From Methanohalophilus profundi (GTDB lineage: Archaea; Halobacteriota; Methanosarcinia; Methanosarcinales; Methanosarcinaceae): DNA of 64,000 nt. Under the pieces are notes generated by a model. The model was not told the DNA's origin. It made no database searches and saw only the letters and a list, made by a program, of their open reading frames with translations. Where the stretch lies: positions 1,437,368-1,501,367 of the forward strand of contig NZ_QBKB01000002.1 of NCBI RefSeq assembly GCF_004137855.1, read 5' to 3'. The translations under genes were made by a program, and so were the position numbers. Below are positions 5,399 to 58,742 of this stretch, one piece after another (the first letter of the stretch is position 1; every line of letters starts with the position of its first letter).

Positions 5399-8283
5399 TC
5401 ATTCAAGATAGATAGCCGGCCTCATTGGTGCTGCAAAGCGGGCTTTCTTTTCGGGATCATACGTCTCTTCTCCTTCCCTGGCGATCTGCACTTCACAACC
5501 AATTTCCTTTTCAAAGAAATTTTTTGCTTCTTGCAGTGTTTCTTTTTCGTCCAGGTTGAAACCGCATACCATCTCGAATTTCTCTTCTTTCATGGCCTTT
5601 ATGTCATCAACAACTTTCTTTGCAAACTTTGGTACTTCTTTTCCATAAGGTCTCATCTCGGGGTCCTGCATGAGCTTCTTTATGAGAATTCCCGGGTTGA
5701 GATCTCCCTGTTGCTGGAGTTCAAGAGCCTGTTTAAAAGCCTCTGATTTCCATTGGGAGGCTGTGTAGAGGACAAGTTTTTGCGGCTTTATACCGGTGAC
5801 TTTTATTATTTCCTCTACATCTGAAAAGTGTTGCTGATCAGCTCTTCGCCAGCTTCGGCATCCCTGTCTATAAATTGCGGGTCATACTCTGGATATTTTT
5901 CCAGGGACACATAACCTTGCGTTTCTTCCATTTCACTCCAGATTTCCTCACATATGTGGGGAGTGAAAGGTGCCATCAGGCGCACCCATGTATCGAGTAT
6001 ATCATACTGGAGGGTCTTTCCTCCTCTCCTCTGATACCATTTCACATCATTAAGAAGCAGGAAGAAAGAATTCTGTAGGGCCTGCCGGGTACGTATGCTT
6101 TTAAGTGCCTCGTTTGTCTCACTGATACGTTGCTGCAGGCGGCTCTGTATCCACCTATCTATCAATTGTTTTTCCTTACAGGCTCCAGAGGTACATTTGG
6201 TATCGATAGTATCTTTTGCAAAATGGTAGAACCTGTCCACCTGTCTCCTGGCGGACTCGATACCACTGTTCTTCCAGTCAGCATCCTGTGTCTGTTCTGC
6301 ACTGGACAGGATATACATCCTGGAAATATCCGCACCATAATCTTTCACTGCTTCACTGAGTGTTAGCAGTGGTCCCTTGGACTTACTCATTTTCTGTCCT
6401 TCAAGAGATACAAAACCATTGATTGCAATGGCACGAGGCCAGTTCTCTTCTCCGAACATCGCAACATGATGGAAAAGGAAGAACAGGAGGTGGTTGGGTA
6501 TGAGATCTTTTCCTGAGGACCTGAGATTGACGGGATACCAGTAATTGAACTCCTCTCGCATGCTTTCAATTACAGAGGCATCAATTCCACTTTTTCCTGC
6601 TGCATCCTGCACACTTCCCTTTCCAAGAAGCACATGATCAAAGAGTTCGGGAACCAGTTGCTCGGTCTTAATATCTTCACTGAGAAACTTTGCAACGATG
6701 TAGTAAGACATGTATACCGTGGAATCTCCCAGGGATTCGATCAACCAGTCCTTATCAAAGGGCAGGCGTGTTCCGAGTCCTTTTTTACGGGCGCAGGCCT
6801 TGTCTTTTAGCCAGTCAACCTTATTATTGAACTCTACCCTCAGTTCTTCGGGAATTATATCCATATTCTCTATGCAGCGGTATACTTTATCCTTCCATTC
6901 AGGATTGGAATAATTGAGGAACCACTGGCCCTTAACCATGTTTACTACACATGGAGTTCCACAGCGGCAGACCACAGGTTCACTGAATTCATAGAATATC
7001 TCACCGATTTTCTCATCGATCAAATCCTGTGTAAGAAGATCCTTTATCTTTGAGACCTTCGTGCCTGCATATTTCCCGGTATTCTCTTTCAGGGTACCTC
7101 CGTGGAATTCCCGCCGATATACCATCTTTGTTGCAGATTCGGCCTTTGGATCATCCTGGTCCTGTACTCCAAATTCCTCTACCGCTTCAACTGCCGGATA
7201 CTCTCCGTACTCAGGAACATCGATAAGAGGTATGAGCTGGATATTCTGGAGATTTTCTGTAATACCGTATTCTGAAAGATCTTTATCATAAAGGTCCTTC
7301 AGGGCCAGATAATCATAAGGCGCATGTGCGGGCACACTCATCACAACTCCGCTTCCGTTACCTCCCCTGACAAAAGATGCCGGCAGGGTGATTACTTCCG
7401 AGTCTGTCAACGGGTTTTTGACCTTTATCCCGATGATGTCCAGACCACTTATTTTTCCTATGAATTCGACTTTACGGTCGGTGTAGGTAAGTTTGTTGTA
7501 TGCTTCTTCACTTACAATCCAGGTCTCTTCATACTCGTCGGTTTTCACCTTCGCCTTGACATATTCCACATCAGGGTTTATCCAGAGGTTGGTGACCCCG
7601 AATGTGGTTTCCGGACGCAGGGTAGCACAGGGTAATACCATGCCATCATATGTGAATTTGATCAGTGTATAATCCACGATAGTGGCTTCTTCTCCCCTGA
7701 GGATGTCATGGTCTTCCACAGGATTGTCATCATTGGGGCACCATTTGACAGGATGTGAGCCTTTTACAATCAGTCCCTTTTCGTAAAGCAGATTGTATTG
7801 CCATTCGATGAATTTTTTATATGTTTCATCGGTTGTAGTGAACTTTCTTCTCCAATCAATGGAATATCCAATGGATCGCATGGCTTTTTCTGCTTCCACA
7901 CTGAAATATTCCACGATTTTTTCCGGGGAATCAAGTCCTTCGAGGATATCCTTCGGGATGCCGTGGAACTTAGAATAGACTTCCATCGTCTGAGGTTCCC
8001 TGTTGGCGATTAGTTCGGCAAGTCCTACAATGGGTGTACCGGTTACGTGGAATCCCATAGGGTAGAGTACATTGTATCCCTGCATCCTCTTGTGCCTTGC
8101 AATAACGTCCCCGATGGTGAAGGTCCTGGTATGGCCTGCATGCAGGTTCCCATTTAGATATGGGTAGGGAATTGTTATGAAATATTTATCCCTGCTGTCA
8201 GGTTCGGCCTCGAAAACTTTGTCCTGAGACCAGATATTTTGCCACCTTTTTTCAATGGTGGCAGGGTTGTAGTTCTGTTCCAT
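5399..8283 (-). CDS. leuS: Leucyl-tRNA synthetase, archaeal type (one frameshift)
   Basis: Class I synthetase charging tRNA-Leu. The HAGH form of the HIGH motif is at residues 48-51, a CP1 editing domain contains TLRPETTFG, and KMSKS is at about 631-635. The frame breaks at the A-run 5824-5827 (TTTT on the coding strand); restoring one base joins the main frame to the last 140 residues (minus 5399-5823) and gives about 961 residues, the usual archaeal length. ATG 8283 is preferred over ATG 8289 because GAGGGG then sits eight bases upstream. It lies 12 bases after thrC, so the two are one operon. The break is probably a sequencing deletion, since the gene is essential. Confidence 0.92.
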
Positions 8284-8295
8284 TATCATATCCCC

Positions 8296-11360: not shown

Positions 11361-12656
11361 CTGTTAAATATACATGTTGCAACCTTTGGCTGTACGGCCA
11401 ACCAGTCCTCTTCCGAGATCCTTGAGGCTAAAGCGGTGGATCTGGGCCACAGGCTTGTATCTGAAAGAGAAGCTGATGTGATCATATGCAACACCTGTAC
11501 AGTCAAGGATACTACAGAGCAGAAGATATTGCACAAGATCAAGGAATGGGGTCTTCAGGGCAGGGAAGTAATTGTCACAGGTTGCATGCCTCAGGTTCAA
11601 ATGGACGAAATATTAGAAAATAATCCCGAGGTTCATGTCCTGGGCATGAATTCCCTTCTTAAGCTCGGAGTAATTCTCAACCGGGTTCATGAAAGGCTGG
11701 GGGGACTCTCATTGAGGCCCATGAGTGTCTTTGATGATTCTCCTGAAGGTTTACTCAATGTGCCCCGCAACAGGTCCAGTCCGAATATCCATATCTGCCA
11801 GATATCACAGGGTTGCAATAACCGTTGTTCCTATTGTATTGTTACACTTGCCAGGGGTCCCCTTTACTCCTTTGATGCCGATTCAATCGTTACCGACATC
11901 GAGCAGGCTGTTTACGAAGGATGCAGTGAGATCTGGCTAACATCCCAGGACAATGCTCAGTATGGTTTGGATAAAGGTATTTATCTGCCTGCACTGCTTG
12001 AGAGGATTACTGCAATTCCTGGAGATTTCAGGCTACGTGTGGGTATGATGAATCCTGCTTCAACACTTGAAATTCTGGATGACTTGTTAGAGGCTTATTC
12101 AAGTGAAAAGATCTACAAAGTTTTACACCTTCCCATCCAGTCAGCTTCGGACAAAGTGCTTGACAGGATGAAACGCAAACATACAATGGAACAGGCAAAC
12201 ATTATAGTCGAAAAGTTCAGGGGTGCGTTTCCCGAAAGTACCCTTTTCACAGATATTATTGTGGGTTTTCCCGGGGAGGATGAGGAGGATTTCGAACTTA
12301 CGCTGGACTGGATTCGAACCTATCGCCCTGATAAGGTAAATATTTCACGTTACACACCAAGGCCGCACACTGAAGCATTGCAATTCAGAAATATAGATAC
12401 ACGTATCGTTGTGGAGCGTTCGGGCAAACTCCATCGTCTCTGTAATCAAATCAAACTCGGAAAAAAGGAAGATATGGTAGGAAGGGAAGTTGATGTATTC
12501 ATCTCACAACAGGCAAAGGTAAAAGGATTGATGTCCCGCACCGATTCTTATAAACCTGTTGTGATCCCTGAAGCAGGTGAATTTTGTCCGGGTCAACGTT
12601 GCAGGGTGAAGATAGAGGAAGCAACCCCTGGTTACTTTATCGGCCACCCTGTTTAA
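11361..12656 (+). CDS. tRNA t6A37 methylthiotransferase (e-MtaB/CDKAL1-like)
   Basis: About 431 residues. This radical SAM enzyme adds a methylthio group to t6A37 of tRNA. The N-terminal UPF0004 domain carries FGCTANQ, CNTCTVK and GCMPQ cysteines. The radical SAM CxxxCxxC is in CNNRCSYC. A TRAM domain closes the protein. No ATG, GTG or TTG precedes the conserved N-terminus in frame. The first candidate is CTG at 11361, eight bases after GGAG, so either a CTG start or a base error. The gene follows glpX by 15 bases and its end overlaps the convergent ClC gene by 20 bases. Confidence 0.87.
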   Translation: MLNIHVATFGCTANQSSSEILEAKAVDLGHRLVSEREADVIICNTCTVKDTTEQKILHKIKEWGLQGREVIVTGCMPQVQMDEILENNPEVHVLGMNSLLKLGVILNRVHERLGGLSLRPMSVFDDSPEGLLNVPRNRSSPNIHICQISQGCNNRCSYCIVTLARGPLYSFDADSIVTDIEQAVYEGCSEIWLTSQDNAQYGLDKGIYLPALLERITAIPGDFRLRVGMMNPASTLEILDDLLEAYSSEKIYKVLHLPIQSASDKVLDRMKRKHTMEQANIIVEKFRGAFPESTLFTDIIVGFPGEDEEDFELTLDWIRTYRPDKVNISRYTPRPHTEALQFRNIDTRIVVERSGKLHRLCNQIKLGKKEDMVGREVDVFISQQAKVKGLMSRTDSYKPVVIPEAGEFCPGQRCRVKIEEATPGYFIGHPV

Positions 12657-14379
12657 GATTATCATCTTCACCGGTTTGCATTCTGTTAACTATTTCCCGG
12701 TCATAGGATTTCACGATATCACTGCGGGTTATTATTCCGATCAGGCTTATTCCATCATTTCTGGAGACAACAGGTAATCTGCCCACATCATGTGCTGCCA
12801 GTCTTTTTAGTACTATGTCAAGAGATTCATCAGGATACGCAGTAGCAACATTTTTAGTCATTATTTGAGTGACCGGTTTTTCCAGTTCCCCCTGCTCTAC
12901 TTTATCGCGCATGTCATGCAGGGTGACAATTCCTGCAATTTTTCCCTAGTTGTCAAGTACCGGGAAACCTGCATGTTTGCTTTTTTGCATTAGATTTAGA
13001 AGATTGGCAGTTGTATCTTTTACATTAAGGAATAACACATCTCTTACCATATTATCCCTGACATTCAGTGATTCCATAACATTTACCTCGGTGCCGGCCC
13101 TGATGACGTGCCCTCTTCTCCTGAGCAATTCTGTAAATATCGATTCTTCATGAAGGTGAGTTGATATTACATTGCTGATCACACAGGCCAACATGAGGGG
13201 CAGGATAAGGTTGTAATCACGGGTAAGTTCAAAAAGAATAAGCATGGCAGTCAGGGGTGCACGTACCACTCCCGCAAAGACTGCCCCCATACCTACAAGG
13301 GCATATGCTCCCGCAGGTGCTGTATAAAAAGGAAAAATATAATTCACCAGATTTCCAAAACCCCCTCCCAGCATAGAACCTGCAAAAAGGGACGGGACTA
13401 TAACTCCCCCCGAACCTCCGGAACCAACTGTGAAGGCAAATGCCACAATTTTAAGGACAAGCAGTATCAACAGCATCTGCAGGGCAAGTTCGTTGTTGAG
13501 GGATTGCTTGATAACATCGTAGCCGATTCCGAATATCTGCGGATAGAAATAACCGATACACCCGACTACAAGTCCTCCAAGTGCAGGTTTCACGTAGGGT
13601 TTGACAGGAACTTTTTCAAATGAATCCCGGGTAAGGTATGTAAATTTTATGAATATTGCAGCAGCAATTCCTGAAAGAACGCCCAGGATGATGTATAGTG
13701 CTGGCTCGTGAAACGGGCTCTCCATACCGTAATAGGAAACCTGTATGGGCTGGATACCAAAAACGATGTCCGTTACAAGGGTAGAGAACACTGAAGAAAG
13801 AACTATCGGTATAAGTGTCTTGGCCTGTAATTCCCCGAGAATTACCTCTACTACAAAAACCACCCCGGCAAGAGGGGCATGAAATGCCGCTGCAATTCCT
13901 CCAGAAGCCCCGCAGGCAATCAATGTCCTGAAACGGTGATCCGGACTTTTCAGCCGGCTGCCTACCGTGGCTCCCACACCGGCTCCCGCGAGAATACCGG
14001 GAGCTTCTTTGCCCACCGATCCTCCTGTACAGATTGAGATCATTGAAAGGAATACTTCATAAAAAGCAAATTTACTCTTTATCTTCCCGCCCTGAAGAGC
14101 TGTTGCTTCCATTACCTCTGCAACTCCACAACGACTTTTTCTCATAAATTTATGGGATATCAGGCCAACGCATAATCCTCCTGCAGCCGGAAGGAGGATG
14201 ATATATTTAGGAAGGTTACTATCCGGGGCATTGAAAAAAAGGGTTGTAAAGTAAAAGGTAACCTGATCATAGGCTACAAAAGCCAGGCCTGTTATTATTC
14301 CTATTATTATGGCAAGGAAATTAGAAATGAACCCTTCGGTGTAATACCGATTCTTTAACTCGTTTTTGGAAATATTCAA
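12637..14379 (-). CDS. ClC-type chloride channel/antiporter with C-terminal CBS pair, in-frame TAG
   Basis: About 580 residues when the TAG at 12946-12948 (coding strand 12948-12946) is read as an amino acid. The membrane part has ClC signatures: GSVGKEAPG near residue 120 and GSGGSGGVIVPSLF near 318. Two CBS domains follow. The TAG falls inside the first CBS domain, between VLDN and GKIAGIVTLHD, where relatives carry a charged residue, and the frame is unchanged on both sides. It may encode pyrrolysine. Termination there would remove most of the CBS pair. The start is TTG at 14379 with a weak ribosome site. Confidence 0.85.
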
Positions 14380-58430: not shown

Positions 58431-58742
58431 ATGGAATTTATTATTGTTTATATCACAACTTCAGGTACAGTTGAGGCACGCAATATAGCATCCGAGTTAG
58501 TTTCCAGAGGTCTTGTCGCCTGCGTGAATATGTATCCTATAAGATCGGTTTTTATGTGGGAGGGAGAAGTAAACGAGGACGATGAAGTCGTCCTTTTTGC
58601 CAAAACGACCAAGAACAATTTTGAACCTGTACGAGAGTTTGTGCGCAGCATACACAGTTATGAGTTACCTGCAATTGTTTCATGGGATATTGAGGCAGAT
58701 CCTGTATTTTTGGAATGGATCAGGACATCGGTATCTAATTAA
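58431..58742 (+). CDS. cutA: Divalent cation tolerance protein CutA
   Basis: 103 residues; small trimeric protein of the PII-like fold. The signature [20 protein letters not shown] covers residues 28-47, followed by the [10 protein letters not shown] helix and the [13 protein letters not shown] strand. The length is typical. Its role in metal tolerance in archaea is unproven. Its end overlaps the convergent cofC by 8 bases. Confidence 0.92.

Follow-up and report, generated by a model that had tools for sequence, protein, structure and literature searches.

Does the in-frame TAG codon in a ClC chloride channel gene of the archaeon Methanohalophilus profundi encode pyrrolysine, end the protein, or reflect a wrong base in the assembly? 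The gene lies on the minus strand (12637..14379) of the 64,000 nucleotides of contig NZ_QBKB01000002.1 that were analysed, referred to here as the window. Its frame opens with a TTG at 14379 and closes with a TAA at 12637-12639. Read-through of the TAG gives it 580 codons, of which the 478th, at 12946-12948 (minus strand), is that TAG, the sole interruption. On the minus strand the context is GTA CTT GAC AAC (VLDN), TAG, then GGA AAA ATT GCA GGA (GKIAG). The membrane domain of a ClC channel is recognized by Pfam over residues 67-406 (PF00654, Voltage_CLC, E 2.9e-96; 13162..14181, minus strand) and lies wholly upstream of the TAG. Given read-through, two PF00571 CBS stretches follow it and complete the CBS pair. 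The first (about residues 440-495; 12895..13062, minus strand) contains the TAG; it is marked by Pfam and aligns with 2yzq, a CBS protein of solved structure, and its limits are our own reading. The second, the best Pfam CBS stretch (residues 503-558; 12706..12873, minus strand), lies downstream. If UAG terminates, the coding stretch shrinks to 12946..14379 (minus strand; open reading frame list, table 11) and the product to 477 residues. The genome holds one ClC gene.

The original prediction had placed the TAG inside the first CBS domain of a ClC channel with no shift of frame on either side, and it was right in both respects, as in its coordinates: one frame is open throughout and the orthologues align across it. 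That the two open stretches belong to a single gene, and did not come together by chance, follows from the alignment of the 575-residue read-through product, end to end and at 89-92% identity, with four congeneric orthologues, none of which has a stop. A frameshift, or two separate genes, could likewise be ruled out, since there is a single frame throughout and the orthologues cover both halves. Among the named genomes scanned, Methanohalophilus sp. RSK carries a close orthologue at 91% and M. euhalobius WG-1MB one at 89%, and in a search of the genus (eight genomes, this one among them) five others gave a near full-length, stop-free ClC match. The phage records searched held no match.

What kind of site is interrupted? 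In the alignment to 2yzq two matching stretches flank the residue of codon 478, which is paired with a Glu, and codon 478 is placed between two predicted strands of the first CBS domain. We read that alignment as probably placing the site in an exposed hairpin turn of the CBS domain. Two structure predictions of three sequences each likewise have a loop there, in models of very low confidence (mean pLDDT 30.3 and 39.5).

The capacity to read UAG is present in this genome. The original prediction had appealed to the decoding of UAG by methylotrophic Methanosarcinaceae; family and lifestyle were correctly named, and the pylT, pylS and pylBCD genes that it had proposed to look for were all found, so that absence of pyl genes is ruled out. 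The pylT-S-B-C-D cluster is complete, with a tRNA-Pyl of anticodon CTA directly ahead of pylS (ARAGORN), followed by pylB, pylC and pylD, and each protein scores above its NCBIfam cut-off. Methylamine methyltransferase genes with in-frame TAG accompany it: mtbB and mttB carry the TAG at the same codon as in the congener G002 and, read through, match PF09505 and PF06253, while PF05369 marks three MtmB-family places, two of which hold one TAG each. Judged from this intact cluster and these amber-containing methyltransferases, the organism can decode UAG as pyrrolysine. PylS scores over its cut-off in 99 of the 111 family genomes; a looser count of 110 is uninformative, because 13 of 14 control genomes also score. 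A review describes Methanohalophilus as lacking the Pyl system (PMC8211752), which is contradicted by the pyl cluster described here and by the account of MttB of M. portucalensis, in which pyrrolysine was detected at position 334 by mass spectrometry (PMC4928046).

Decoding of UAG is, however, shared with termination. UAG is described as both sense and stop, with an introduced amber codon read through at 20-30% (PMC2933860), and Pyl as competing with the release factor without need of a cis element (PMC9499178, PMC8211752); use of UAG as a stop is put at under 6% in pyrrolysine-using archaea (PMC9723677). The release factor aRF1 is present in one copy over the cut-off in each of the eight genomes of the genus. 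The copy of this genome has four private residues relative to five congeners, all past position 190, and an ordinary N-terminal sequence. TAG gene ends are rare in the genus (11 of 708 open reading frames in G002 and 8 of 358 in G005, some of these being internal sense codons), and a few conserved genes, pylB for example, keep a TAG end in common with their orthologues.

If the TAG served a conserved function it should recur in relatives, and at codon 478 it does not. The four closest orthologues (G001, G002, G005, G006) have CAG (Gln), one base from TAG, and a further congener, G007, has AAC. Across the family, a ClC match at E <= 1e-80 was found in 82 of 111 genomes, at 86 places. Of the 85 places that belong to other genomes, 41 were read and 40 counted at codon 478; the broken copy L168 was left out of the tally, its top segment missing the site. 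The 40 relatives carry N (12), K (7), D (6), E (5), R (5), Q (4) and S (1), a polar residue in every case. The residue is charged in 23 and uncharged in 17, so the prediction of a usually charged residue here stands for a majority of relatives and fails for the rest, including the four nearest, with their Gln. None of the 40 has TAG, and a conserved functional pyrrolysine was accordingly rejected; here the comparison of orthologous codons weakens the stronger reading of the prediction. As far as these alignments reach, the TAG is a derived change limited to this assembly. The pattern, a species-limited TAG one base from the CAG of relatives at a tolerant site, is that of an accidental pyrrolysine of the kind seen in Thg1.

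Elsewhere in the family, internal TAG codons occur at two more of the 86 places, in G101 and in a fragment in G090. The G090 fragment also holds a TGA, as does a second place in that genome, and internal TAA is found at none of the 86. PylS is over the cut-off in G101 and below it in G090. The G101 orthologue (L166, G101:C543:12897-14585), from another genus, has Lys at codon 478 and an independent TAG 17 codons further on, where the first CBS domain ends (the codon matching 495).

Is the base itself correct? The main rival explanation is that the true codon is CAG and the channel ordinary, the TAG being an error of sequencing or assembly, which we regard as possible but on balance unlikely. 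The assembly (1.83 Mb, 4 contigs, completeness 89.98%) gives this explanation some weight. Indel errors are common in it, as its excess over congeners of frame changes and of non-triplet indels attests. Frame changes affect 67 of 501 genes when compared with G002 and 41 of 261 when compared with G005, whereas a comparison of G005 with G002 gives 2 of 270 and 1 of 272. With queries from this genome, in the reverse direction, frame changes number 21 in 507 and 13 in 267. The frame-change excess has a Fisher P of about 1e-12 and 1e-11. In 261,688 aligned bases this genome has 118 non-triplet indels, compared with 73 in 274,516 for G002; those in homopolymers number 47 compared with 14. Because the assembly has so many frame-shifting errors, the base at the TAG is uncertain.

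Ten frame-change sites, relative to G002 or G005, lie in the window itself, near positions 5824, 18017, 26816, 29694, 31966, 44202, 46361, 47589, 53378 and 60816. The window frame at 5815-8289, which we take to encode leucyl-tRNA synthetase, ends at 824 residues, and its counterparts in G002 and G005 have 963.

The errors recognized in this way are, however, mostly indels of one base, and the TAG codon stands outside any homopolymer. The substitution spectrum of this genome is close to that of its congeners. Its ratio of nonsynonymous to synonymous changes is 0.305, compared with 0.286 and 0.249 in congeners, and amino-acid changes are only slightly more severe (mean BLOSUM of nonsynonymous changes 0.694, compared with 0.806 and 0.789; random, -0.430). 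If the nonsynonymous excess is taken as error, the sampled codons could contain 100-285 wrong bases, enough by themselves for 1.3-3.7 TAGs where 5 are seen. The form of the change also speaks for an error to some extent: AAT CAG of relatives has become AAC TAG, as though neighbouring bases had been swapped, and among 166 columns invariant in 25 relatives the one at which this protein alone differs, L481I, is three codons past the TAG. Yet control rows differ at 0 to 2 of these columns, and swaps are not clearly enriched among adjacent double changes (36 of 308 here, compared with 49 of 622 and 27 of 342).

Random errors should also yield TAA and TGA, both of which are absent from the strict set below. 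Internal stops were surveyed in samples of this genome (740 kb), G002 (780 kb) and G005 (400 kb), with thresholds chosen after inspection of the data. Clean stops in coding-tested genes of this genome comprised 8 TAG, 2 TAA and 1 TGA with G002 queries (490 genes) and 6 TAG, 2 TAA and 1 TGA with G005 queries (232 genes). Under a strict filter (at least 45 codons in, at least 10 from the end, queries of at least 150 amino acids) this genome had 7 TAG and neither TAA nor TGA, G002 had 3 TAG and 1 TGA, and G005 had none. One of the seven was dropped as a homopolymer deletion, and another was kept though it resembles a compensated indel pair; for the remaining 6 of 6, P is 0.001-0.006 at expected TAG shares of 0.33-0.43. 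With the threshold at 20 codons or more, there were 8 TAG and 3 TAA, one TAA site being also in G002, and 7 of 10 were TAG after the same drop (P 0.02-0.08). In a three-way test of single changes (81,627 codons, 289 genes) this genome had 5 TAG, 2 TAA and 1 TGA (P 0.08-0.22), G002 had 1 TAG, 2 TAA and 1 TGA, which is no lean, and G005 none. The lean towards TAG is thus strong in the strict set and weak in the loose sets, a fading that, together with thresholds set post hoc, calls for caution in using it in favour of a genuine TAG.

Some TAGs of this genome are not errors of its assembly, because they are common to G005. One lies at window position 58735-58737 (G000:C2:1496102), in a 214-residue frame, four codons short of its end, where G002 has GAG; the other, at G000:C2:1598349, is codon 18 of a 405-residue frame. 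Both stand at gene edges. In-frame TAGs were also seen in cofD (G000:C2:1396782-1397698) and a hemA-like gene (1613543-1614811), genes that a methanogen should need. An argument that TAG must be read because essential genes such as cofD and hemA carry it was withdrawn: cofD also has a frame change, of which the assembly has many, and for this reason its TAG is likely an error.

A third possibility accepts the base and denies the read-through. The TAG could be true nonsense in a dispensable gene, leaving a CBS-less channel of 477 residues or a gene on its way to being lost, with read-through negligible; we consider this rather improbable. The arrangement of the gene would allow it, with the membrane domain entirely ahead of the TAG; the closest solved ClC matches, bacterial ClcA chains of about 440-490 residues, correspond to the membrane part only, and aRF1 is at hand with its ordinary N-terminal sequence. 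The gene is also dispensable in the genus: the search gave no full-length ClC match in congener G003, and G004 keeps only the ends. In G004 (L033, about 2595-2764) a 61-codon frame consists of roughly the first 30 and last 30 codons, nearly all of the middle being gone.

The tail beyond the TAG nevertheless looks constrained. Between this genome and four congeners dN/dS is 0.12-0.16 after the TAG and 0.12-0.15 before it; control pairs give 0.16 to 0.49 after it. Before the TAG, 33 synonymous and 12 nonsynonymous changes are private to this genome, and after it 5 and 2; no more than two nonsynonymous of seven would have P about 0.009 under neutrality. As estimated from these substitutions, the comparison shows a tail constrained over most of the history of the lineage and leaves the TAG itself undated. 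Low dN/dS in the tail thus counts against nonsense, but a recent TAG would show the same; nor is it proof of pyrrolysine, because bacteria without a pyl system are described as having low dN/dS after in-frame stops too (PMC7918605). A further objection to negligible read-through comes from the pyl system, which makes some read-through likely, given the behaviour of amber codons described in PMC2933860.

Our best explanation, held with modest confidence, is a neutral change of CAG to TAG that is partly read through as pyrrolysine, as in Thg1. An ordinary ClC-CBS channel gene would have exchanged its Gln codon for TAG on this lineage only, in a cell that produces pyrrolysine and tRNA-Pyl for its methylamine methyltransferases. 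Since no cis signal is needed, Pyl-tRNA would compete with the release factor aRF1 at the UAG of codon 478. Some ribosomes would insert pyrrolysine and finish a 580-residue channel with both CBS domains; others would release a 477-residue channel with its membrane domain whole and no complete CBS pair. A lysine derivative at codon 478 should be harmless because relatives carry assorted polar residues there, Lys included, and the change would then be neutral or nearly so. We infer that the base is correct, that codon 478 is read through and that the product works. Neutral gain of UAG in candidate genes is discussed in PMC3639795.

The prediction that pyrrolysine would occur here in an unusual class of protein survives in part. 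Partial read-through is to be expected if the codon is real, because of the pyl cluster, the amber methyltransferases and the pyrrolysine detected in MttB of a congener. The stronger reading of the prediction is weakened by the precedent of accidental pyrrolysine in Thg1, by the lack of conservation of the residue and by the uncertainty of the base. For a role of pyrrolysine in nucleotide sensing, nothing was found that points to one, and among the matches listed in the open-licence literature nothing concerned pyrrolysine in a ClC channel. There is no sign that pyrrolysine does something special in this channel; the case would be ordinary in kind.

Might the TAG instead act as a switch, the supply of pyrrolysine deciding how much of the channel is full-length and CBS-regulated and how much is CBS-less? 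The TAG does lie past the membrane domain and ahead of the second CBS domain, and G101, a member of another genus with PylS over the cut-off, has its independent TAG a short way on. The CAG of four congeners and the scarcity of internal TAG, at three family places of which one is a broken copy, argue against a switch, which we consider very improbable. If it existed, growth on methylamine, with plentiful Pyl-tRNA, would give the full-length CBS-regulated ClC and other conditions the CBS-less channel of 477 residues. Chloride handling in a hypersaline methanogen would thereby be tied to the supply of pyrrolysine, and the separate TAG of G101, where the same CBS domain ends, would be convergence.

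The accidental pyrrolysine that we favour finds its closest known counterpart in the tRNA-His guanylyltransferase Thg1 of Methanosarcina acetivorans, where neutral evolution is said to have given rise to a non-essential pyrrolysine (Heinemann et al. 2009, as cited in PMC2933860). Both are in-frame ambers of one species, outside methylamine metabolism, absent from relatives and present in a cell with the pyl system. The differences are that pyrrolysine was physically observed in Thg1, whereas the channel is known from error-rich draft sequence alone, and that the protein here is a membrane channel. With MtmB, MtbB and MttB the channel shares organism, codon and decoding machinery. These methyltransferases are described as having a conserved amber codon with pyrrolysine in the active site (PMC8211752, PMC2933860), whereas the TAG of the channel is unique to this assembly and its site variable. 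The membrane domain and CBS pair, from Pfam and from matches to solved ClC and CBS proteins, resemble those of other ClC proteins with C-terminal CBS domains, the difference here being the stop codon within the first CBS domain. A 2025 report is said to describe archaea that read all TAG codons as pyrrolysine. The rarity of TAG gene ends in this genus is similar; the few conserved TAG ends that remain, as at pylB, are a difference.

If the base is real, the channel is most likely a new candidate of a known kind, accidental pyrrolysine, and not a new sensor. As a membrane channel it would then join the few putative pyrrolysine proteins outside methylamine metabolism and support the view that these archaea tolerate UAG as an ambiguous sense codon; genes with an annotated break at TAG would deserve re-examination. 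Before a check of the reads, a lone in-frame stop in an indel-rich draft is weak evidence.

Two further features of the TAGs in this genome may be mentioned. Four of the six strict internal TAGs (G000:C2:1397498, 1450313, 1598250 and 1033838) are followed by a glycine codon, GGN. A systematic error that makes TAGGG was considered and rejected, with gains per 1000 changes of 7.2 here, 8.2 in G002 and 6.4 in G005; this genome does gain or lose some other 5-mers more often, including CCCCC and AAAAA. Finally, an in-frame TAG also interrupts the gene for another protein with CBS sequences, four stretches of them (L050, G000:C2:1094566), at a codon that is TAC in G002 and G005.
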